Shown here: positions 7,544-21,882 of the stretch, one piece after another
Numbering within the stretch: the stretch's first letter is position 1
How the letters are laid out: every line of letters starts with the position of its first letter
Source: Burkholderiales bacterium
GTDB taxonomy: Bacteria; Pseudomonadota; Gammaproteobacteria; Burkholderiales; Burkholderiaceae
Direction of reading: 5' to 3'
Length of the DNA stretch: 30,151 nt
NCBI GenBank assembly: GCA_947371645.1
Contig: CANBQJ010000021.1
Location: 1-30,151, forward strand
The notes under the pieces: model-generated
Told to the model about the DNA's origin: nothing
The model's database searches: none
The model's input: only the letters and a program-made list of their open reading frames with translations
Program-made: the position numbers and the translations under genes

Positions 7544-9235
7544 TCAAGCCTCTTCGGTGCGGCTCATGGCGCTGTGGTGATAGCCGTTGGGCGTCTCGCC
7601 ACGCTGGGCGTCGAACCAGTCGGCCACGGCCTGGCGCTGGTCGGGCGTGTAGTGCAGACCCAGCTTGCTGCGCCGCCACAGCACGTCTTCGGCCGTTTGC
7701 GCCCACTCGTGGCGCTTGAGGTAGTAGAGCTCCAGCTCGTAGAGGTCGGGGGCCACCTCCAGGCCCAGGTCCTGGCGTGAGGACACGCCTTCAATGAGCC
7801 GCAGCACCCGGCTGCCATAGGCGCGCGTCCAGCGCCGCATCAGCCCCAAGTCCATCCAGGGGTGGCGTTTGCGCAGGCGCTGCTGGAACAAGGCCAGGTC
7901 GGCCACGGGGTTCTCGGGCTCGTCGACCAGCTCGTCAAGGTTGCCGCCGGGCAGGGTGGCATCGGCCGTCCAGGGGTGGCGCTCGTCGCCCAGCAGGCGG
8001 CCCACCTCGTCGGCAGCCTGCTGCGCCAGCACGCGGAAGGTGGTGATCTTGCCGCCCCACACCGTCAGCCAGGGCGCGGGCTTGGACTGCACCTGCAGGC
8101 GGTAGTCGCGCGTCACCGCCGAGGCCTTGCCGCTGGCGTCGTCCAGCAGGGGCCGCACGCCGGCAAAACGCCAGACCACGTCGCCAGGCTCCACCGAGCG
8201 GCGCAGGTAGCGACTCACCTCCTGGCAGAGGTAGTAGACCTCTTCGGGGTCGACCTCGACCTCCCCGACCGGGCCCTTGTGCTCGACATCGGTGGTGCCG
8301 ATGAGCGTGAAGTTGCGCTCGTAGGGGATGGCGAAGACGATGCGCCCGTCGCGGCCCTGGAAGATGTAGGCGTGCTCGTGGGGGAACAGGCGCGGCACCA
8401 CGATGTGGCTGCCCTTGACCAGCCGCAGCTGCGGTTCGGCGGCGCGCTTGGCGCCGTCGCGAGACACGTGATGGCGCTGGGTGCCCTTGATCAAGGCGGG
8501 CTTGTCGCCCATCACCTCGCGCAGCATGTGCTCGGCCCAGGGGCCGGCGGCGTTGACCACCAGCTTGGCCTGCACGGTCAGGCGGTGCACGCTCTGGCCG
8601 CTGTGGGCGTCGCGCTGGGTCAGGCCCACGCGCCAGCCGCCCGCATGCACCTGCATGCGCTCGCAGCGCGTGCGGGTGAGCACCTGGCAGCCTTGCTCGG
8701 CCGCGTCCAGGGCACACAGGGCCACGAGGCGGGCGTCGTCCACCCAGCCGTCCGAATAGACAAAACCCCTGGTCCACTGCGGCTTCAAAGGCCGGCCCAG
8801 CTCGCTTTGCTGCAGCGACACCGTTTCGCAGCCGGGCAAAAACTCGCGCGGCGCCAGGTTGTCGTAGAACCACAGCCCCAGGCGGATCATCCAGGCCGGG
8901 CGCATGCCGGCGTCGTGCGGCAGCACAAAGCGCAGCGGCCACATGATGTGCGGGGCCGAGCGCAGCAGCAGCTCGCGCTCCATCAGGGCCTTGCGCACCA
9001 GGCTGAACTCGCCGTGCTCCAGGTAACGCAGGCCGCCGTGGATGAGTTTGGTGGACGCCGAAGACGTGTGGCTGGCCAGGTCGTCTTGCTCGCAGAGCAG
9101 CACGCGCCAGCCGCGGCCGGCCAGGTCGCGCGCGATGCCGGTGCCATTGATGCCACCGCCCACCACGAGCACGTCGCAGTGGAAATCCGCCTCACGGGTG
9201 GCGTCGTCGCTGGGCAAATCGGGCTCAGGCAGCAA
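7544..9235 (-). CDS. glpD: Aerobic glycerol-3-phosphate dehydrogenase
   Basis: FAD-dependent enzyme oxidising glycerol-3-phosphate to dihydroxyacetone phosphate at the inner membrane and passing electrons to quinone. The FAD-binding motif DVLVVGGGINGTGIARDLAG is near the N-terminus, then STKLIHGGLRYLEHGEFSLV, the conserved GTTDVEHKGPVGEVEV, GVRPLLDD and WGGKITTFRVLAQQAAD; the C-terminal domain is the usual DAO_C helical region. Length about 563. There is no ATG near the N-terminus: frames allow TTG at 9256 or TTG at 9235, and only the latter has a strong ribosome site (GGAGGA at 9243-9248, seven bases away), so I start there. Divergent from glpR, which should repress it. Confidence 0.95.
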   Translation of the reverse strand: MLPEPDLPSDDATREADFHCDVLVVGGGINGTGIARDLAGRGWRVLLCEQDDLASHTSSASTKLIHGGLRYLEHGEFSLVRKALMERELLLRSAPHIMWPLRFVLPHDAGMRPAWMIRLGLWFYDNLAPREFLPGCETVSLQQSELGRPLKPQWTRGFVYSDGWVDDARLVALCALDAAEQGCQVLTRTRCERMQVHAGGWRVGLTQRDAHSGQSVHRLTVQAKLVVNAAGPWAEHMLREVMGDKPALIKGTQRHHVSRDGAKRAAEPQLRLVKGSHIVVPRLFPHEHAYIFQGRDGRIVFAIPYERNFTLIGTTDVEHKGPVGEVEVDPEEVYYLCQEVSRYLRRSVEPGDVVWRFAGVRPLLDDASGKASAVTRDYRLQVQSKPAPWLTVWGGKITTFRVLAQQAADEVGRLLGDERHPWTADATLPGGNLDELVDEPENPVADLALFQQRLRKRHPWMDLGLMRRWTRAYGSRVLRLIEGVSSRQDLGLEVAPDLYELELYYLKRHEWAQTAEDVLWRRSKLGLHYTPDQRQAVADWFDAQRGETPNGYHHSAMSRTEEA

Positions 9236-12887: not shown

Positions 12888-14414
<1,527 letters not shown>

Positions 14415-14427
14415 AGCGGCGTGAGCC

Positions 14428-14447
14428 CCCCCCTACCCGCAGGGGGG
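14428..14447 (+). terminator. Candidate hairpin terminator after glpK
   Basis: CCCCCCT (14428-14434) pairs perfectly with AGGGGGG (14441-14447) around a six-base loop, 13 bases after the glpK stop. The stem is very GC-rich, but no T-tract follows (GTGGTGG comes next), so it is a weaker terminator candidate than those in the peptide cluster. Confidence 0.45.
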
Positions 14448-14594
14448 TGGTGGCTAACCTGCTCCCAAACCCCCGCAGGTTCACGCTTGAAGGGCCGCGC
14501 AGGAGGCCGGCGGCGGCCGTTCGTGAACGAATGCACAAGCGCCTTTCGTCAAGCAAAATTCCCCACAAATGCTGTGGCTTTGAATATCCCATTC

Positions 14595-14611
14595 GGGGAA
14601 TGATGTTCCCC
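14595..14611. promoter_or_regulatory. Palindrome GGGGAA-TGATG-TTCCCC upstream of the peptide genes
   Basis: A perfect 6-bp inverted repeat with a five-base centre, 149 bases before the first peptide start. The half-site TTCCCC also occurs at 14559-14564. The whole 14448-14759 stretch is AT-richer than its surroundings and has no gene; I expect the peptide promoter within it, but no -35/-10 pair stands out. It could be an operator or a 5' RNA hairpin. Confidence 0.35.
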
Positions 14612-14759
14612 CTTTCCCGCATTCAAATGGAAATCAAGGCGCTTGGGTAATTTCCCGGTGCTCATGAAATATCCCTGCCTCGTACATTGAAGTCACTGAA
14701 ACGCAAAACACAAAACGCGATTCAGACGACACATCAACCGACCCCGCAAAGGATAGATC

Positions 14760-14939
14760 ATGCGCACACTGCAAACCCAAGAAGTCAAGTCTGTTGCCGG
14801 CGCCGGCATCATCACCTCCACCCTGAGCACAGGCGTCAAGGCTGGCTCGGCCCTGGTGAATGGCGTGGCCACCGCAGGCACCATCGTCGCCAAACCCCTG
14901 GTGAGCGCGGGCATCAAGGTCATCAAGTTTCTGATCTGA
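14760..14939 (+). CDS. Peptide 1: microcin-like precursor with 15-residue leader, glycine-zipper core
   Basis: 59 codons with a strong ribosome site (AAAGGA 14748-14753, six-base spacer). The start MRTLQTQEVKSVAGA aligns residue by residue with the microcin V leader as I remember it (MRTLTLNELDSVSGG): Arg2, Thr3, Leu4, Glu8, Ser11, Val12 and Gly14 coincide, with Ala replacing the final Gly, as in some class II microcins. Cleavage after residue 15 by the C39 peptidase encoded downstream would release a 44-residue cationic hydrophobic peptide rich in Gly/Ala/Val/Ile, with G25-xxx-G29 and further spaced glycines and ending KVIKFLI. Not recognised as a named peptide. 75% identical to peptide 2 (44 of 59 by my alignment). 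It could be a bacteriocin or another secreted factor. Confidence 0.82.
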   Translation: MRTLQTQEVKSVAGAGIITSTLSTGVKAGSALVNGVATAGTIVAKPLVSAGIKVIKFLI

Positions 14940-15175
14940 ATCCGTCAAACAATGCACCGCAACTGGTTAGCCATATATATCGACCAACAGGTTAACCAGC
15001 CATTTCAGGTGACCGTATTGTCCCCGCCCCTTGTTTGAATGTTTCGGCGGGAATTCAGGTTTCACCCTGATCAATACCTTGACCAGCCCGATTTAAAGTG
15101 AATTCACTGAATCGCAGCAAACAAGAACAAGCGGTTCAGTGTTCACATACCAACCCAGTCTGAAAAGGAAAAATC
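14940..15175. promoter_or_regulatory. Peptide 1-2 intergenic region with inverted repeats
   Basis: 236 bases with no gene. CTGGTTA (14963-14969) and TAACCAG (14993-14999) form a 7-bp inverted repeat around an AT-rich centre containing ATATATAT, a plausible regulator site or promoter core. CCCGCC (15023-15028) pairs with GGCGGG (15046-15051) around a 17-base loop without a following T-tract, so termination there is doubtful. Peptide 2 may have its own promoter here or be read through from peptide 1. Confidence 0.4.
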
Positions 15176-15355
15176 ATGCGCCAACTCCAAGCTCAAGAAG
15201 TCAAGTCTGTTGCCGGTGCCGGCATCCTCACCTCCACCCTGGTCACCGGCTACAACGCTGGCGCCGCCCTGGTGGGTGGCCTGGCCTCGGCTGGCACCAT
15301 CGTGGCCAAGCCCCTGGTGAGCCTGGGCACCGCCGTGTTCAAGATCCTGATCTGA
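15176..15355 (+). CDS. Peptide 2: microcin-like precursor, paralog of peptide 1
   Basis: 59 codons; ribosome site AAAGGA at 15164-15169 with six-base spacer, the same layout as peptide 1. Leader MRQLQAQEVKSVAGA, predicted cut after Ala15; core of 44 residues beginning GILTSTL, with G25-xxx-G29, G35-xxxx-G40 and a C-terminal FKILI. Leader and the segment AGTIVAKPLVS are the most conserved parts relative to peptide 1; substitutions are mostly conservative, a pattern of a functional tandem duplicate rather than decay. Only one Lys pair remains in the core, so it is less basic than peptide 1; the two could work as a two-peptide pair. A strong terminator follows 48 bases after the stop. Confidence 0.82.
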   Translation: MRQLQAQEVKSVAGAGILTSTLVTGYNAGAALVGGLASAGTIVAKPLVSLGTAVFKILI

Positions 15356-15403
15356 ACGACCAGGTGAGCTTCGCGCGGCACCCTGCCGCATGAACCCAGA
15401 CAG

Positions 15404-15442
15404 CCCGATGCCCGGTGAGCCTCACGGTTCATCGGGTTTTTT
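15404..15442 (+). terminator. Rho-independent terminator after peptide 2
   Basis: CCCGATG (15404-15410) pairs perfectly with CATCGGG (15430-15436), an inner GTGAG/CTCAC stem extends the fold, and TTTTTT follows (15437-15442). A textbook intrinsic terminator closing the peptide 1-2 unit. Confidence 0.88.
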
Positions 15443-15513
15443 CATGGCACCGGCTCGCACCAAGGGTTTGCCTGCGGCTCCACAAGTAACGACACGCATC
15501 CAACGTCGCCAGT

Positions 15514-15612
15514 TCACCCATGACAGGCACGTCAAGGCGCCCTTTGGGTGAGCCATGACACCTTGCCAAATGTCGCTTTAACGACAATCTCCAGCGGACG
15601 CACCCTGCGTCC
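15514..15612. promoter_or_regulatory. Regulatory-looking region upstream of peptide 3
   Basis: Between the terminator and peptide 3. TCACCCA (15514-15520) and TGGGTGA (15545-15551) form a 7-bp inverted repeat, and GGACGC (15596-15601) with GCGTCC (15607-15612) forms a perfect hairpin around ACCCT, 42 bases before the peptide 3 start, in what would be its 5' untranslated region. Since a terminator precedes it, a promoter for peptides 3-4 must lie here; its exact hexamers are not clear to me. Confidence 0.4.
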
Positions 15613-15653
15613 AGTCGGTGCACCGCAACGACTCAACACATGGAGAGACTGCA

Positions 15654-15842
15654 ATGCGTACGCTCAACACCCAAGAAATCCAATCCGTCCAAGGCGCTGG
15701 CTGGTTCGCCGACCTGCTGGCCAAGATCGGCAAGACCAACGTGAACGTGGCCGTGGTGGCCAAGCCCGAAGGCTCGACCAACGTGACCGTCACCAACAAC
15801 CTGACGGACGTGCTGGTCAATGTGATCTGGGGCAAGAAGTAA
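15654..15842 (+). CDS. Peptide 3: microcin-leader peptide with Val/Asn-rich core
   Basis: 62 codons. The ribosome site GGAGAG (15642-15647, six-base spacer) fixes the start although the frame is open 12 codons further upstream. Leader MRTLNTQEIQSVQGA is again of the 15-residue microcin V type. The predicted 47-residue core starts GWFADLLAKIGKTN and then becomes an alternating polar/hydrophobic pattern (NVNVAVVA, TNVTVTNN, VLVNVIW), ending GKK. This suggests a short amphipathic helix followed by beta strands, unlike the glycine-zipper peptides 1, 2 and 5. Function unknown; a partner peptide, immunity-like or fibre-forming role is conceivable. Peptide 4 starts eight bases after its stop. Confidence 0.75.
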   Translation: MRTLNTQEIQSVQGAGWFADLLAKIGKTNVNVAVVAKPEGSTNVTVTNNLTDVLVNVIWGKK

Positions 15843-15850
15843 TTCCCGCC

Positions 15851-16021
15851 ATGCGCACCCTGAACCCCCAAGATCTGGCTGCCGTGTCCGGCGGCAAGGC
15901 GGTCATCCAGGTGGACGTCAACGTGCCTGCACAATATGTGCACGTGAACCTCGTGACGGACACCAAGACCTACAAGCTGTTCAATTTCGACTGGAGCGGG
16001 CTCGTCAAAAGCGGGGCCTGA
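15851..16021 (+). CDS. Peptide 4: microcin-leader peptide with canonical Gly-Gly
   Basis: 56 codons. Leader MRTLNPQDLAAVSGG is the closest of the set to the canonical double-glycine microcin leader, ending in Gly14-Gly15. The 41-residue core is beta-prone and neutral to weakly acidic (IQVDVNVPAQYVHVNLVTD, then KTYKLFNFDWSGLVKSGA). Lacks a strong ribosome site of its own and begins only eight bases after peptide 3, so it is probably translated by coupling. The shared VNV/HVN motifs with peptide 3 suggest the two cores act together. A strong terminator follows. I recognise no homolog for the core. Confidence 0.75.
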   Translation: MRTLNPQDLAAVSGGKAVIQVDVNVPAQYVHVNLVTDTKTYKLFNFDWSGLVKSGA

Positions 16022-16053
16022 ACCAGCTCTGGCCATTTGCAGCCAGCCAGAAG

Positions 16054-16082
16054 GGCCTGACCGCACCGGTCGGGCCTTTTTT
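16054..16082 (+). terminator. Rho-independent terminator after peptide 4
   Basis: A 10-bp stem, GGCCTGACCG (16054-16063) with CGGTCGGGCC (16067-16076) including one G-U pair, a three-base loop, and TTTTTT (16077-16082). Very strong intrinsic terminator ending the peptide 3-4 unit. Confidence 0.93.
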
Positions 16083-16093
16083 CTGATTCAAAT

Positions 16094-16177
16094 GGGTTAG
16101 CCCATAACCTCCACGGGTGAGCGTGAAACCCCATTCCCGCAAGCCAGGGGAAATGAGGCCGCCTCCGTGCTCACCCG
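16094..16177. promoter_or_regulatory. Inverted repeats upstream of peptide 5
   Basis: ATGGG-TTAG-CCCAT (16092-16105 region) is a short perfect palindrome, and CGGGTGAGC (16114-16122) has its exact reverse complement GCTCACCCG at 16169-16177. A 9-bp inverted repeat of this quality just after a terminator and before the peptide 5 start is a good candidate for a looping operator or an RNA stem. The promoter of peptide 5 and possibly of the transporter genes should lie in 16083-16260. Confidence 0.4.
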
Positions 16178-16276
16178 ATATTCACCGTCCAGGCATGTGA
16201 CTACATTCAATTCACCGGGCCGCGAGTTCACATTCAAACCCCGCCCTGGCCCAGGGCAATGCGTGAAGGAATCCAC

Positions 16277-16456
16277 ATGCGTGCACGCCAGCCAGCCAGA
16301 CGGCCAGCTGAAATCAAACCGGTATACGGCGCGGGTCTGCTGACCTCGGCTGCGAAAATCGGCGCCATCGCCGGAGAGGCCGTCGTCGGTGGTGTGGTCG
16401 AGCTGGGCAAGGACACCGTCCGGCTGGGCGGCAAGGTCCTCTCTGTCCTGATTTGA
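16277..16456 (+). CDS. Peptide 5: glycine-zipper peptide with an unusual, longer leader
   Basis: 59 codons from ATG 16277, chosen because AAGGA (16266-16270) lies six bases upstream; an in-frame ATG at 16259 has no such site. Residues 12-19 (EIKPVYGA) match the end of the leader in peptides 1 and 2 (EVKSVAGA), but the first eleven are replaced by an Arg/Pro-rich stretch (MRARQPARRPA), so the leader would be 19 residues. The 40-residue core GLLTSAAKIGAIAG... carries a GxxxG, a GG pair and ends VLSVLI, homologous to the cores of peptides 1 and 2. It stands alone between two terminators, directly before the export genes. Confidence 0.75.
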   Translation: MRARQPARRPAEIKPVYGAGLLTSAAKIGAIAGEAVVGGVVELGKDTVRLGGKVLSVLI

Positions 16457-16499
16457 AGCCCCCTGGGCCGCCCCAGTCCCCGAACGCGTTGGGGGCACA

Positions 16500-16524
16500 T
16501 GTTCTTTGGTCCCTGTTCTTTGGT
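16500..16524 (+). repeat. Short tandem direct repeat, 14-bp period
   Basis: TGTTCTTTGGT occurs at 16500-16510 and 16514-16524 separated by CCC. It lies in a T-rich stretch downstream of peptide 5 and upstream of the terminator hairpin; origin probably slippage. Confidence 0.6.
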
Positions 16525-16559
16525 TTTTGATTTGTTTCGGTACGGCTTTTCCCCTTTTG

Positions 16560-16590
16560 CCCGGCGCTTTCGCGTCGGGTTTTCCTTTTT
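16560..16590 (+). terminator. Rho-independent terminator after peptide 5
   Basis: CCCGGCGC (16560-16567) pairs with GCGTCGGG (16572-16579) around TTTC, with one G-T pair, and is followed by TTTTCCTTTTT. It separates peptide 5 from the export genes, which then need their own promoter in 16591-16699 or depend on readthrough. Confidence 0.85.
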
Positions 16591-16659
16591 CGGGCCGCGC
16601 AATGCAGGCCGATAGAATCTGCTCGCGCCGCCAATCTGGTACCTGCGCGCACCGGACTG

Positions 16660-16685
16660 TTTTGTTGAGCCGCTTTTGTTGAGCC
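16660..16685 (+). repeat. Short tandem direct repeat before the channel gene
   Basis: TTTTGTTGAGCC occurs at 16660-16671 and 16674-16685, again a 14-bp period. It sits just upstream of the ribosome site of the TolC-like gene, where it could be a regulator half-site pair. It also creates in-frame TTG codons that could be mistaken for the start. Confidence 0.6.
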
Positions 16686-16699
16686 AATTTGGAGCCGTC

Positions 16700-18316
16700 G
16701 TGATCACCCGCCGCCCGCCACCCGCCGCCAGAGCGCAGCGCCCCACCCAGCACCTCGTGGGGGCCTTGGGCCGTCTGGCCCGGGCGTGTGCCTGGGTGTG
16801 CGCCTGCTCGTGCGGCATGGCACAGGCCTTCACGCTGACCACTGAATTGGGGCGCACCCCCAACTGGGCGACACCCGGCCAGAACCAGGCCGCGCAAGCT
16901 GCGGGCACGCCGCCCCTGCGGGTGTCGCCGCAACTGGGCGCTCCGCAGCCAACCAGCAGCCCCGCGAACTCAAGCCTGGCCACGCCCGCCAAGCCCTCCA
17001 CCCAGGCGCCCGCCGCCACAGCCATGCCCCTCGCCACACCAGGCCTGCTGGCCTGGCCAGAGCTGCTCGCCCGCATCGGCCAGTCTGCCGACTTGCGCGC
17101 CGCCCAGGCCGATGCCCAGGCCAGCACCGCCGTGAGCCGACAGCAATGGGCCAACGCCTGGATGCCACGCCTGGACGCATCGGCCAGCAGCAGCACGCAG
17201 AACCAGCGCTACAACGGCAACAGCTCGCAGACGCCCAGCTCTTCGGTGGCGCTCACCGCCACCCTGCCCCTGTGGCGCCCGGCCGAGCGTGCCGCAGCCG
17301 ATGCCCAGGCTGTCACCGCGCAGCAGGCGACCTGGCAGGCACGCAACCGCCAGGTGACGCTGGCGCAAGAGCTCAGCCAGGCCTGGCTGGACGCCGCCGA
17401 CGCCGCCGAGCAGCTGCGCCTCACCCAGGCCCACACCGAGCTGCTGGACACCCAGCTGCGCGCCAACGAGCGCCGCCTGCAATCGGGCCTGGGCACGGTG
17501 CTGGACCCGCTGGAAACGCGCACCCGCCTGGCCCAGGTGCAGGCCCAGGCCGACCAGCTGGCCTCGCGCCTGCGCAGCCAGGCGCTGACCATCGAGCGCC
17601 TGAGCGGCCCGGGCGCCGCCCTGCCGCTCGGCCTGCGTGCCAACACCGCCGCGCCTGCCGCCACGCCAGCCGCCAACTTGCCCCCACTGCCCGAAGCCCT
17701 CACCACCGCCACCGACCGCAACCCCGCCCTGCAAGACGCCCGCGCGGGCGCCCAGGCCGCCGATGAGGTCACCCGGGCGCGCGGTGCCGAAAGCTGGCAG
17801 CCCACCGTGGACGCCACCGCCAGCACCAGCCGCACCCGCCAGACCCAGCGCTTCGAAGGCGTCAGCGAGCAGCAGAACGTGCAGAGCCGTGCCGTGGGCG
17901 TGGCCCTGAACTGGCCTTTGCTCACGGGCGGCTACCAGTTGGAGCGCCAGCGCGAGGCCACCGCCTTGCTCACCGGCGCCCAGGCCCGGGTGGACAGCGC
18001 CCAACAGCGCCTTGACACCGGCCTGCGCGACGCCTACCAGCGCCTGGACCAGGCCGAGAACCGCCTGGCCCGCCTGCAGACCCTGGTGGACAGCGCCCAG
18101 GCCACGCAAGACGCCATCACCAAAGCCTGGGCCGCCGGCCTGCGCAGCAACACCGAACTGCTCAACAGCCAGCAGCAGCTCTTCGAGGCCAAGCTGGGCC
18201 TGGCCAGCGCACGCGTGGCCGCCATGCAGGCCACCGTCGACGCGCTGGCCCTGCTGGACTGGCTGGACGCCGACCACATCGCCCCGCTGATGGGCCAGTT
18301 CGACCTGGGCTCCTGA
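16700..18316 (+). CDS. TolC-family outer membrane channel of the peptide exporter
   Basis: 538 residues from GTG 16700, chosen for GGAG at 16691-16694; TTG 16676 would add eight residues. A basic start and hydrophobic stretch ending in GMAQA (about 42) form a signal peptide. After a Pro/Ala-rich linker the outer membrane efflux protein (OEP) domain appears twice, each half a long Ala/Gln/Leu-rich coiled hairpin plus a strand pair: SSSVALTATLPLWRPAERAA in the first and GVALNWPLLTGGYQLERQRE in the second, with SGLGTVLDPLETRTRLAQ and NTELLNSQQQLFEAKLGLA after the helices. It would form the outer membrane duct for the adaptor and ABC transporter next to it. A dedicated channel gene is notable, since microcin systems often borrow the housekeeping TolC. 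Confidence 0.92.
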   Translation: MITRRPPPAARAQRPTQHLVGALGRLARACAWVCACSCGMAQAFTLTTELGRTPNWATPGQNQAAQAAGTPPLRVSPQLGAPQPTSSPANSSLATPAKPSTQAPAATAMPLATPGLLAWPELLARIGQSADLRAAQADAQASTAVSRQQWANAWMPRLDASASSSTQNQRYNGNSSQTPSSSVALTATLPLWRPAERAAADAQAVTAQQATWQARNRQVTLAQELSQAWLDAADAAEQLRLTQAHTELLDTQLRANERRLQSGLGTVLDPLETRTRLAQVQAQADQLASRLRSQALTIERLSGPGAALPLGLRANTAAPAATPAANLPPLPEALTTATDRNPALQDARAGAQAADEVTRARGAESWQPTVDATASTSRTRQTQRFEGVSEQQNVQSRAVGVALNWPLLTGGYQLERQREATALLTGAQARVDSAQQRLDTGLRDAYQRLDQAENRLARLQTLVDSAQATQDAITKAWAAGLRSNTELLNSQQQLFEAKLGLASARVAAMQATVDALALLDWLDADHIAPLMGQFDLGS

Positions 18317-18370
18317 GCCACTCAGCACCCGCCCACGCCCTCGCCCGCACCCCTTGCCCCACACCGCACC

Positions 18371-19657
18371 ATGAGCGCCCCAGACGCCCCCCCAAACCAA
18401 GCCGATGAGGCCTCGTCGCTGTTCCGCCACGAGGTGCTGGCCGCGCGCACCGACACGGCCGCCGGCGCCACCATCACCATCCGCCCCGTGGGCGCTGCGC
18501 CGCTGACCTGGTTTGCCGCGGCCATGGCCGCCGCCGTCGTGCTGGTGCTCGTCTTCGGGCAGTACACCAAGAAAGAGCGCGTGCAAGGCGTGGTGCAGCC
18601 GCGTGACGGCGTGGCCATGGTGATGGCGCCAGAGGTGGGCGTGCTCAGCAAGCTGCTGGTCAAAGACGGGCAGGCCGTGCAGGCGGGCGACGTCATCGCC
18701 GAGCTGCGCAACGAGCGCTACACCGACACGGGCAACGCCCAAGGCACGATCGAGTCCAACCTGCAAGGGCAGGCCGAGCAGCTGCAGACGCAGGTCGAAG
18801 GCCAGGCCCAGGCCCACCAGGCGGCACTCGACGCGCTGGCCTCGCGCGTCCAGCGTGGCGAGCGCGACGTCAAGTCCCTGCGCGACGAGCTCTCGCTGCA
18901 AGGCCAACAAATTGCGTCCGCCCAGAAGCTGATGGACCAGATGCAGCCCCTGCTGGCCGAGCGCATCGTCTCGCAGCTGCAGTTCGAGCAGCAACGCCAG
19001 GTGGTGCTGGACCAGACCGCGCGCCGCCAAAGCCTGCAGCGCCAGTTGAGCGCCGCAGAGGCCGACCTGGCCCAGGCCCGCGACGAGCGCGCCCGCATCA
19101 CCGCCGAGCACCGCGTCAGCCGCGCCACCCTGAGCCGCGACCTGCTGACCCTGCAAAGCGAAACCGTCACCCGGCGCAGCAACCGCGTCACCTTGTTGAA
19201 GGCCTCGGTGGCCGGCACCGTCACCAGCCTCACGGCGGGCGTGGGCCAGACGGTCTCGCCCAACGCGGCACTCGCCGCCATCGTGCCCGCCGCATCGCCC
19301 ATGGAAGCGGTGCTCTACGTGCCCAGCACGGCCATGGGCTTCATCAGGCCAGGCCAGTCGGTGCGCGTGGCCTTCGATGCCTTCCCCTTCCAGCGCTTTG
19401 GCCAGTACCACGGCGTGGTCAGCACCGTGTCGCAAACCGATGTGGCCCTGCCGGCCAGCAGCCAGCAGGCGCAGCAACAAGACCGCCGCGCCGTCTTCAT
19501 GGTCCGCGTGACCCTGGACAGCCCCAGCGTGAAGGCCTATGGCACGCTGATCCCCCTGCGGCCTGGCCACACGCTCACCGCCGACATCGAGATCGACAGG
19601 CGCAGCCTGCTGAGCTGGATGTTCGACCCCCTCTTCGCCTTCAGCGGCAGGCTGTGA
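18371..19657 (+). CDS. HlyD/CvaA-family periplasmic adaptor of the peptide exporter
   Basis: 428 residues. A short cytoplasmic N-terminus, one transmembrane helix (about 50-68, FAAAMAAAVVLVLVFGQ), then the lipoyl-like half VMAPEVGVLSKLLVKDGQAV, a long coiled-coil hairpin (about 120-275, Gln/Arg/Ala-rich), the second lipoyl half ASVAGTVTSLTAGVGQTVSP, and a beta-barrel ending LRPGHTLTADIEIDRRSLLS. This order is that of type I secretion membrane fusion proteins; the LRPGHTLTADI-DRRSLL-W ending is typical of the CvaA branch that works with peptidase-containing transporters. It starts 54 bases after the channel gene, and its stop overlaps the start of the transporter gene (TGATG). Confidence 0.93.
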   Translation: MSAPDAPPNQADEASSLFRHEVLAARTDTAAGATITIRPVGAAPLTWFAAAMAAAVVLVLVFGQYTKKERVQGVVQPRDGVAMVMAPEVGVLSKLLVKDGQAVQAGDVIAELRNERYTDTGNAQGTIESNLQGQAEQLQTQVEGQAQAHQAALDALASRVQRGERDVKSLRDELSLQGQQIASAQKLMDQMQPLLAERIVSQLQFEQQRQVVLDQTARRQSLQRQLSAAEADLAQARDERARITAEHRVSRATLSRDLLTLQSETVTRRSNRVTLLKASVAGTVTSLTAGVGQTVSPNAALAAIVPAASPMEAVLYVPSTAMGFIRPGQSVRVAFDAFPFQRFGQYHGVVSTVSQTDVALPASSQQAQQQDRRAVFMVRVTLDSPSVKAYGTLIPLRPGHTLTADIEIDRRSLLSWMFDPLFAFSGRL

Positions 19658-21882
19658 TGAACACCCCCAACCTCCTCACCCTGTGGTCACGCCAGCGCGT
19701 GCCCATGATCCTGCAGTCCGAAGCGGCCGAATGCGGCCTGGCCTGCCTGGCCATGGTGGCCGGCACCCACGGCCTGGACACCGACCTGCTCACCTTGCGC
19801 CGCCGCTTCGAGATCTCTTCACGCGGTGCTTCGCTGGCCCGCCTGATGGAGATCGCCGAGCAGATCGGCTTTGGCAACCGCGCCGTGCGGCTTGAACTGG
19901 ACGAGCTGCCCCAGCTGCAAACGCCTTGCATCCTGCACTGGGACCTGAACCACTTCGTGGTGCTGACCAAGGCCGACGCGAACCGCATCACCATCCTCGA
20001 CCCGGCCAGCGGCGAGCTGTCGCTGACCATGAAGGAGGTCAGCCCCCACTTCACCGGTGTGGCGCTGGAGCTGGCCCCCGGCCCCAGCTTCAAGAAGGTG
20101 GTCGACAAGACCCCGTTCGACTGGCGCGTGCTCTTCGTGGGCCAAAGTGGCCTGTGGAAGGCCTTTGGCCAGATGGCCGTGCTGTCGCTGGTGCTCGAGG
20201 TGTTTGCCATCCTCATGCCCATGCTCAGCCAGTGGATCGTGGACGACGTGGTCGTCACCCGCGACACGCCGCTGCTCACCGTGCTGGCCGTGTCCACCTT
20301 CCTGCTGGGCATCATGTCGCTGGCCACGCGCATGCTGCGCGGCTGGATCGTGCTGGGCACCAGCCTGGCCTGGAAGCTGGCCAGCAGCACCAACGTCTTT
20401 CGCTACATGCTCAAGCTGCCCTTGAGCTACTTCGACAAGCGCCACACGGGCGATGTCATGTCGCGCTTCTCGTCTGTGGAACACATCCAGGACACGCTGA
20501 CCACCCACCTGGTTGAAGCCGTGCTGGACGGCGTCGTCAGCCTGGTGACGCTGGCGCTGATGTTCGCCTACAGCCCCAGCCTGGCGCTGATCGTGATGGG
20601 TGTGGCAGCGGTCTACATCGTGGTGCGCTTTGCCGTGTTCGGGCCTTACCGGCGCGCCGCCGAAGAGCTCATCGTGCGCCAGGCGCTGGCGCAAACCTTC
20701 TTGATGGAGACCTTGCGTGGCGTGAGCGCCATCAAGTTCTTCGCCAAGCCGGGCTGGCGCGTGGGCGGCTGGATGAACCAGCAGGCCTCGATGATCAATG
20801 CCCACGTCAAGCAAGAGCGCGTGAGCCTGCTCTACCAGGGGATCAACGGCAGCATCGGCGCCGCGGAGCAAGCCCTGGTGCTGTACCTGGCGGCCAAGAT
20901 GATCATCGCAGAGCAGTTCTCGATCGGCATGCTGGTGGCCTTCCTGGCCTACAAGGGCCAGTTCCTGCAGCGCGCCAGCGAGTTCATCGAACGCATCATC
21001 AACCTGCGCCTGCTGCGCCTGCAAGGCGACCGCCTGGCCGACATCGTGCTGAGCGAACCCGAGGCCCCATCGCCCCCGCAAGCACTGGAGCTGGCCAAGG
21101 CCAGCGACCCCACCGCGCCGATGAGCATTGAGCTGCGGGACGTCACCTTCCGCTACGCCACCGATGAGGCCCCCGTGCTCAACAAACTGAGCCTGACGCT
21201 GCGCACCGGCCAGGCCGTGGCCATCGTGGGGCCGTCGGGCTGCGGCAAGTCGACCTTGCTGAAGGTGCTCTCCGGCCAGGTGCAGCCCGAGAGCGGCGAG
21301 GTGCTGCTCAATGGCGTGCCCATCCAGCGCCTGGGCGCCGAGGCCTTCCGCACGGTGCTGGGCACGGTCTTCCAGGATGACCAGATGTTCTCGTGCAGCA
21401 TCTACGACAACATCGCCATGAACGACGTGGAGGCCACGCCCGAGAAGGTGGCCGCCGCCGCCCGCGCGGCCTGCGTGCACGAGGACATCGCCCGCATGCC
21501 CATGGGCTACCAGACCCTGGTGGGCAGCATGGGCGCCACCCTGTCAGGTGGGCAAAAGCAGCGCGTGCTGCTGGCGCGTGCGCTGTACAAGCAGCCGCGC
21601 TTTTTGCTGCTGGACGAATACACCAGCCACCTGGACTTCGGCACCGAGAAGCTGGTGCAGGACTCGATCAACGCCCTGGGCTGCGGCCGCTTCATCATCA
21701 CGCACCGTCAGCACTCGCTGAGCGAAGGCGATGTGGTCTACGTGCTGTGGAACGGCGAGCTGCTGCCGCTGGAAGAGTTCCAGCGGCGCATGGCCGAGCA
21801 GGAGGCCGCAGCAGCGGCCGCGCTGGAACTGCAGATGGCCGAACTGGCCAGCCTGGCCGGGCCAGACAGCGCTTCAACTTGA
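19657..21882 (+). CDS. Peptidase-containing ABC transporter (C39) for leader cleavage and export
   Basis: 741 residues. The N-terminal C39 cysteine peptidase (about 12-140) has all expected catalytic residues: Gln20 and Cys26 in QSEAAECGLAC, His99 in DLNHFVVL and Asp115 in ILDPASG, so it should cut after the Gly-Gly or Gly-Ala of the peptide leaders. About 160-450 is a six-helix ABC transmembrane domain, and the nucleotide-binding domain carries Walker A GPSGCGKST (about 525), the signature LSGGQKQR (about 629), Walker B LLLDE (about 651) and the switch His in ITHRQHS. The Walker B is followed by DEYTSHLD where most members have DEATS. This is the CvaB/PCAT architecture. A GTG at 19654 is an alternative start. 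Confidence 0.96.
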   Translation: MNTPNLLTLWSRQRVPMILQSEAAECGLACLAMVAGTHGLDTDLLTLRRRFEISSRGASLARLMEIAEQIGFGNRAVRLELDELPQLQTPCILHWDLNHFVVLTKADANRITILDPASGELSLTMKEVSPHFTGVALELAPGPSFKKVVDKTPFDWRVLFVGQSGLWKAFGQMAVLSLVLEVFAILMPMLSQWIVDDVVVTRDTPLLTVLAVSTFLLGIMSLATRMLRGWIVLGTSLAWKLASSTNVFRYMLKLPLSYFDKRHTGDVMSRFSSVEHIQDTLTTHLVEAVLDGVVSLVTLALMFAYSPSLALIVMGVAAVYIVVRFAVFGPYRRAAEELIVRQALAQTFLMETLRGVSAIKFFAKPGWRVGGWMNQQASMINAHVKQERVSLLYQGINGSIGAAEQALVLYLAAKMIIAEQFSIGMLVAFLAYKGQFLQRASEFIERIINLRLLRLQGDRLADIVLSEPEAPSPPQALELAKASDPTAPMSIELRDVTFRYATDEAPVLNKLSLTLRTGQAVAIVGPSGCGKSTLLKVLSGQVQPESGEVLLNGVPIQRLGAEAFRTVLGTVFQDDQMFSCSIYDNIAMNDVEATPEKVAAAARAACVHEDIARMPMGYQTLVGSMGATLSGGQKQRVLLARALYKQPRFLLLDEYTSHLDFGTEKLVQDSINALGCGRFIITHRQHSLSEGDVVYVLWNGELLPLEEFQRRMAEQEAAAAAALELQMAELASLAGPDSAST

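Follow-up and report, generated by a model that had tools for sequence, protein, structure and literature searches.

Peptides with double-glycine (GG) leaders that are exported by ATP-binding cassette (ABC) transporters with a C39 peptidase domain are known as a kind, and a locus of this appearance, consisting of five small genes (p1 to p5) directly upstream of the genes for a type I exporter, lies in the 30,151-nucleotide stretch from a Burkholderiales bacterium that was analyzed here (contig CANBQJ010000021.1; the whole stretch is referred to as the window). The closest described systems include the class II microcins. According to the accessible parts of a 2022 survey (PMC9746304), a class II microcin is defined by five parts, one of which is a cognate immunity protein, and knowledge of these microcins was limited to Enterobacteriaceae; the same parts state that immunity genes are hard to spot in screens, that some microcins may have none, and that the screening rule for them is a protein of 250 aa or less encoded within three genes on either side. 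Like microcins V, L and N, the window has double-glycine leaders, a C39 ABC transporter with the catalytic Cys, His and Asp, and an HlyD-type adaptor; the class II features present are thus a GG/GA leader (p1 to p4), the C39 ABC transporter, and a membrane fusion protein together with TolC. The window differs in its five small genes, its Burkholderiales host, its lack of a convincing immunity gene and its peptide cores, which pass no Pfam or NCBIfam model. Its TolC-like gene lies in the cluster, whereas microcin clusters are often without one (accessible part of PMC13174018). The sequence-only reading of this DNA had called the locus microcin-type and likened it to the class II microcins, and this holds for the leader, the C39 domain and the adaptor and TolC; the identity as class II microcins was not established, as there is no convincing immunity gene and p1 matches MccV only at E 0.084.

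Three further systems invite comparison. Cdz (CdzABCDI) of Caulobacter is similar to the window in having small GxxxG peptides beside ABC and HlyD genes, with no modification genes recognized. Its description (PMC5380434) includes an extended GxxxGxxxG in both peptides and an immunity protein for which three membrane helices are predicted; the window has no GxxxGxxxG, only a single GxxxG in each of p1, p2 and p5, and no CdzI-like gene was seen in it. GG peptides that depend on a C39 transporter serve biofilm formation in the accessible part of PMC4997328, and EbfG1-4/PteB of Synechococcus elongatus, which we liken to the window by description, likewise comprise several GG-motif peptides that need a C39 transporter, but with a cyanobacterial host and a biofilm role. 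For GG peptides whose genes adjoin that of a predicted C39 peptidase, a role in autolysis is given and antimicrobial activity was not detected, again in the accessible part of the source (PMC11798529). The Neisseria Nap island is bacteriocin-like and resembles the window in combining a predicted C39 peptidase with small GG peptides, three in its case, and no antimicrobial activity was found in the assays reported; it is horizontally acquired and has a FapF-like channel and a LagC-like gene, whereas the transporter studied here is present in most genomes of the genus. In our literature searches, with most subscription papers outside their scope, no title or beginning of an abstract describes this locus, and no beta-proteobacterial term occurs in the accessible parts of PMC9746304, PMC5380434 and PMC13174018 (the terms varied by paper). 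As far as these searches go, what is new is a genus-wide transporter with swappable, scattered cargo, the p3/p4 pair, the channel gene within the cluster and the absence of any convincing gene for immunity.

The explanation that we tentatively favor is that the dedicated type I exporter matures and secretes strain-specific small peptides, likeliest for competition with close relatives. The five open reading frames (ORFs), located between a glycerol kinase gene and the TolC-HlyD-ABC cassette (16676–21882), are real at the places predicted for them, with 59, 59, 62, 56 and 59 codons for p1 to p5, all on the forward strand. p1 (14760–14939) encodes 59 aa, consisting of the leader MRTLQTQEVKSVAGA and a 44-aa core with a net charge of +4 and a single GxxxG; p2 (15176–15355) is its tandem paralogue (59 aa, 75% identity), and both genes are contained in a 212-nt direct repeat that is 80% identical. 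p3 (15654–15842; 62 aa, 47-aa core) is followed after 8 bases by the start of p4 (15851–16021; 56 aa), and the two peptides gave no match to each other in pairwise BLASTP. p5 (16277–16456; 59 aa) resembles p2 in its core. The G+C content at third codon positions (GC3) of p1 to p5 is 0.78, 0.80, 0.86, 0.82 and 0.70, respectively, and a crude gene caller retains p1, p2, p3 and p5, while p4 forms the tail of a longer listed frame. Using a leader model trained only on leaders from other genomes, with those of the window excluded, p1, p2, p3 and p4 scored 31.8, 29.6, 29.9 and 32.0 bits, compared to a top score of 5.8 bits in 60 dinucleotide shuffles of the window, which bears out the 15-residue leaders proposed for these four peptides.

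The fifth peptide had been proposed as a further precursor, cut after residue 19. On the same model its leader scored -2.2 bits and does not qualify as a double-glycine leader, while its core is 44% identical to p2 over 55 aa. p5 is, from its sequence, a paralogue of p2 and probably a decaying copy of it; since the assignment comes from the core and the leader has this score, the cleavage site is a guess, export is doubtful, and p5 is unfit for listing as a secured precursor.

The exporter set claimed downstream is complete, with its own TolC-like gene in the cluster. The TolC-like outer-membrane channel (16676–18316, forward strand; Pfam OEP, E 3.2e-42) has a listed TTG start at 16676 and, by eye, a likely signal peptide after an in-frame GTG at 16700; against the type_I_sec_TolC model it falls under that model's cut-off. 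The HlyD/CvaA-type periplasmic adaptor (18371–19657, forward strand; HlyD_3, 5.3e-16) is followed by the C39 peptidase-containing ABC transporter (19654–21882, forward strand), which matches Peptidase_C39, ABC_membrane and ABC_tran, each at 2e-34 or better. Its residues Q20, C26, H99 and D115 are intact as had been stated, when counted from the ATG at 19657; the GTG at 19654 chosen by the ORF tool lengthens the protein by one residue. With NHLM_micro_ABC1 the transporter gave 479.1 bits against a cut-off of 853.3, and it is thus not assigned to the exporters of NHLP/NHLM peptides, while a C39 ABC, HlyD and TolC set with adjacent leader-bearing small ORFs is what the locus contains. From the observed genes, leaders, catalytic residues and conserved arrangement, cleavage, export and release can be predicted: the C39 domain would bind the 15-residue leader of p1 to p4 and cut after GA or GG, and the ABC-HlyD-TolC conduit would release cores of 44, 44, 47 and 41 residues. 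The leaders and the intact catalytic residues support such leader-guided cleavage and export by the adjacent transporter for these four peptides.

A search for related exporters was confined to the best 80 loci. Among the matches listed, most of the closest exporters carry the label Aquabacterium (L001-L015 and L019, with ABC identities of 74–80%), so that by sequence the closest relatives of the window belong to this freshwater genus of Burkholderiales, and the host is non-enterobacterial as the sequence-only reading had supposed. The transporter was detected at E ≤ 1e-100 in 26 of the 42 genomes of the genus to which L003 (Aquabacterium soli) belongs, including G026 with only 44% identity and G042, where a contig end truncates the match. 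Of 399 sampled genomes from the family, 42 gave a transporter match at E ≤ 1e-190: 38 at 45–48% identity and 4 at 73–77%, the latter all belonging to the genus set as well.

A scan for leader ORFs covered 31 loci including the window; its model was partly built from the same leaders, and it therefore finds such ORFs but does not test them. When the window, the distant L016-L018, L120 (44%) and L121 (the same place as L019) are set aside, 25 related exporter loci remain, and 22 of these have a leader ORF adjoining tolC, a single one in 21 and two in L019, with that of L110 weak (10.8 bits); in 6 of the 22 the leader ORF is divergent from tolC. The other three are L001 and L012, whose contigs begin at tolC, and L008, whose cargo gene is elsewhere in the genome. 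The relatives that keep the transporter mostly keep a small GG ORF beside it, as was expected, but it is rarely of the p1 to p5 families. The cargo cores fall into approximately seven families, sorted by eye: IHK with the related IHR (7 and 4 loci; the alignment showing their relatedness took in five of these loci), L002/L009-L011 (4), L003/L004 (2), L013/L117 (2), p1-like (L112), p3/p4 (L019) and L110. The window, with five small genes, has more of them than any other locus seen in the genus. The number of precursors had been taken as one of the features that set the locus apart from known systems, but it is not unique: the Aquimarina locus L021 has seven double-glycine-like leader ORFs (14–29 bits), located 2–5 kb before a transporter that is 44% identical.

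The argument for competition comes from the glp site (glpK, or a glpD/glpR pair recognized by eye), at which five apparently unrelated cargo types occur in eight loci including the window. The exporter would stay at this site while the cargo changes between species, and because the exporter is kept and the cargo swapped, competition with close relatives is likeliest, as for bacteriocins. Pairing of the peptides adds to this for p1 to p4: p1-type genes are in tandem in the window and in L150, and a p4-type ORF lies just after p3 in all four loci concerned (the window, G016, G001 and G019, with the partner at L183 in G019 recognized by eye). An antibacterial use of these four peptides is accordingly the likeliest role that their sequences suggest. 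p1 and p2 would be cationic, GxxxG-bearing, probably helical and membrane-active; p3 and p4 may act as a pair; and self-protection would not involve a recognizable neighboring immunity gene.

Several observations weigh against this explanation, the foremost being immunity. Examination of ORFs of at least 30 aa in 14380–16700 for codon composition and hydropathy yielded no convincing immunity gene, and none was found at the three loci with p1-type genes (window, L112 and L150). The cargo regions of eight loci share only the peptides and other frames overlapping them, with no common immunity ORF. No CdzI-like ORF with three membrane helices was found in 14380–16700, where the only frames with a 19-residue hydropathy mean above 1.6 are p2 and a 58-aa frame, whose length would not accommodate three helices. 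The antisense frame that overlies p2 (15250–15432) has a GC3 of 0.80 and is not hydrophobic. The absence of a convincing gene is no proof that there is no immunity. In addition, the p1-type gene of L112 is single. The p1 structure model, a single long helix, is of low confidence, with a predicted local distance difference test (pLDDT) score of 58. The faster evolution of p1-type than of IHK cargo, with a ratio of nonsynonymous to synonymous rates (dN/dS) of 0.38–0.80 in 6 pairs, counts in favor of competition but is a rough estimate on high-GC genes of 59 codons. Finally, in the IHK family, the commonest cargo family in the genus and absent from the window, the core is 91–98% identical among seven loci (21 pairs), compared to 68–97% for the ABC transporter, 45–89% for HlyD and 36–80% for TolC; synonymous differences reach at most 0.66 and dN/dS is 0.05–0.30. 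A core more conserved than its own exporter is the reverse of what is expected of a microcin, and for this family it speaks against an arms race.

These points, above all that no convincing immunity gene is seen and that a sister cargo is conserved, make it a serious possibility, if the less probable one, that the exporter secretes non-toxic peptides, either a species signal or a surface or biofilm component similar to EbfG1-4, in which case the cargo differences would be species signatures. Such peptides would need no immunity gene, cargo genes occur elsewhere in the genomes so that one exporter may serve several of them, and GG peptides with biofilm (PMC4997328) or autolysis (PMC11798529) roles are in print in the accessible parts of these papers. 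The IHK pattern is not general, however: IHR cargo (95–98%) is about as conserved as its ABC transporter (97–99%), and in L010/L011 the cargo is less conserved (86% vs 97%). The turnover of cargo at the glp site and the faster evolution of p1 look bacteriocin-like, and the family that speaks most for a non-toxic role is not in the window. A wider version, in which the genus-wide C39 exporter of Aquabacterium is a non-toxin secretome with scattered cargo, the 46-residue IHK core being an ancient signal or surface factor and the p3/p4-type pairs strain-specific additions, is likewise a real though less probable possibility. It is improbable that the peptides are canonical class II microcins with an immunity function that was missed, being encoded elsewhere, hidden in a small ORF, or supplied by p4 or p5. 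The available text of PMC9746304 does describe immunity as hard to spot and perhaps not universal, its size-and-distance rule would take in the gene that follows the transporter, p5 is a copy that resembles a toxin but has a poor leader, and a hydrophobic stretch (19-residue mean 1.89) is present in the 58-aa frame between p5 and tolC (16506–16682, forward strand), the only frame seen that looks like an immunity gene. That frame, however, begins with TTG, has a GC3 of 0.57 and an internal terminator-like hairpin, and runs into the listed start of tolC; seven other cargo regions lack a counterpart of it, and by composition it is probably not a gene. The downstream gene encodes a DUF218 protein, for which comparison with the 31 other loci gave nothing at E ≤ 1e-10, though in some of them the sequence stops shortly past the transporter.

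A role in the use of fat or glycerol, with the peptides interface-active or linked to nutrients, is one form of a non-toxic function and a quite unlikely one. In the window an alpha/beta hydrolase gene lies 56 bases before glpK, giving the order esterase-glpK-p1, with genes for GlpD, a carboxylesterase and an acyl-CoA thioesterase nearby. In 4 of the 7 contexts seen first, the cargo had an acyl-CoA dehydrogenase gene within 4.5 kb, compared to a chance of approximately 4.3% at most for each (from 722 genes of this kind in 170.4 Mb). Both the contexts and their distances are manual assignments, and two of the seven may share ancestry. The idea was derived from these same contexts. In those found later (the metH region, L171, L173, L183 and L184) none of five had such a gene within that distance, as judged by eye, with contig ends truncating some of the stretches, and the lipid link was rejected as the main explanation; two other later loci, L166 and L172, repeat one of the four earlier contexts.

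For the favored explanation, competition between close relatives, as for its non-toxic alternative, the consequences extend beyond this locus. Either Gram-negative bacteriocins extend to a design with unusual self-protection, or proteobacterial C39 export also serves non-toxic peptides, and these loci offer a clean test, with an identical type of exporter, differing cargo and environmental hosts. For genome mining they are a warning that a double-glycine ORF adjoining a C39 transporter does not by itself make a microcin.

The coupling between cargo and exporter is loose in several respects. In the transporter tree the window joins the main IHK clade (support 98/97) despite its different cargo and site, and L114 and L116 fall into another clade although their IHK cargo is the same, which indicates that cargo, site and exporter are partly uncoupled. 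p1-like genes occur in 2 of the 42 genus genomes, and in G019 the p1-like tandem is on a contig other than that of the exporter. p3-type genes are detected at E ≤ 1e-3 in 7 of the 42, four as N-terminal matches only and three more fully (G016, G001 and G019). IHK or IHR genes are present in 18 of the 42, several of them distant from the exporter, and G040 (2.6 Mb) has one with no transporter at E ≤ 1e-100. Since cargo genes are found away from the exporter, a single exporter probably serves several of them.

In terms of relatives and structure, searches of p1 to p5 against Pfam and NCBIfam gave nothing above cut-off. The best Pfam match was the weak one of p1 to MccV (13.9 bits, cut-off 27), and p2 to p5 had no Pfam match. 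Protein databases hold 10 relatives of p1, 3 of p3, and 33 proteins of the IHK family, the weakest at 43% identity; the structure models of p1 and of the IHK peptide (pLDDT 57 for the latter) were below the quality that a fold search needs. The glycerol kinase gene (FGGY; 12888–14414, forward strand), a neighbor outside the system, also precedes the cargo in L002, L010, L019 and L182 (the last by eye). No promoter-like site was obtained in a promoter scan, the three terminator-like sites equal the shuffle mean of 3.0, and Rfam gave nothing at gathering scores. The best de novo motif, similar to GGGTTAnCnCG, lies approximately 160–215 bases before cargo start codons in L002, L009-L011, L013-L015, L019, L113, L115, L117 and L150. 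A shared upstream motif is not claimed: held-out genes were mixed, with 5 of 9 at 12 bits or more (null 95%, 9.9) and one at 3.4, and 4 of those 5 have upstream DNA homologous to training rows.

The 46-residue IHK core is almost invariant in L014, L015, L113-L116 and L118, and IHK loci lie near an acyl-CoA dehydrogenase gene and usually also a TetR gene, as do L166 and L172. At L166 the IHK cargo is in its usual place, but the exporter lies on a different contig. IHR cargo at L170, L171 and L174 shares upstream DNA (approximately 150 bases by eye) with the cargo at the exporter in L005, L006 and L111, as if cargo and promoter had moved as a unit. Genome G016 has two exporter loci (L112 and L121) with different cargo, and the transporter match of each was flagged for an in-frame TGA. 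The tandem of G019 at L150 (approximately 8237–8760, reverse strand) consists of two p1-like genes for identical 59-aa peptides and adjoins TetR, acyl-CoA dehydrogenase and FadJ-like genes, with no exporter on the stretch examined. At L184 (approximately 7883, reverse strand) a leader ORF with a new core sequence lies next to a TetR gene in genome G035, whose exporter is on that contig at a distance of approximately 250 kb.

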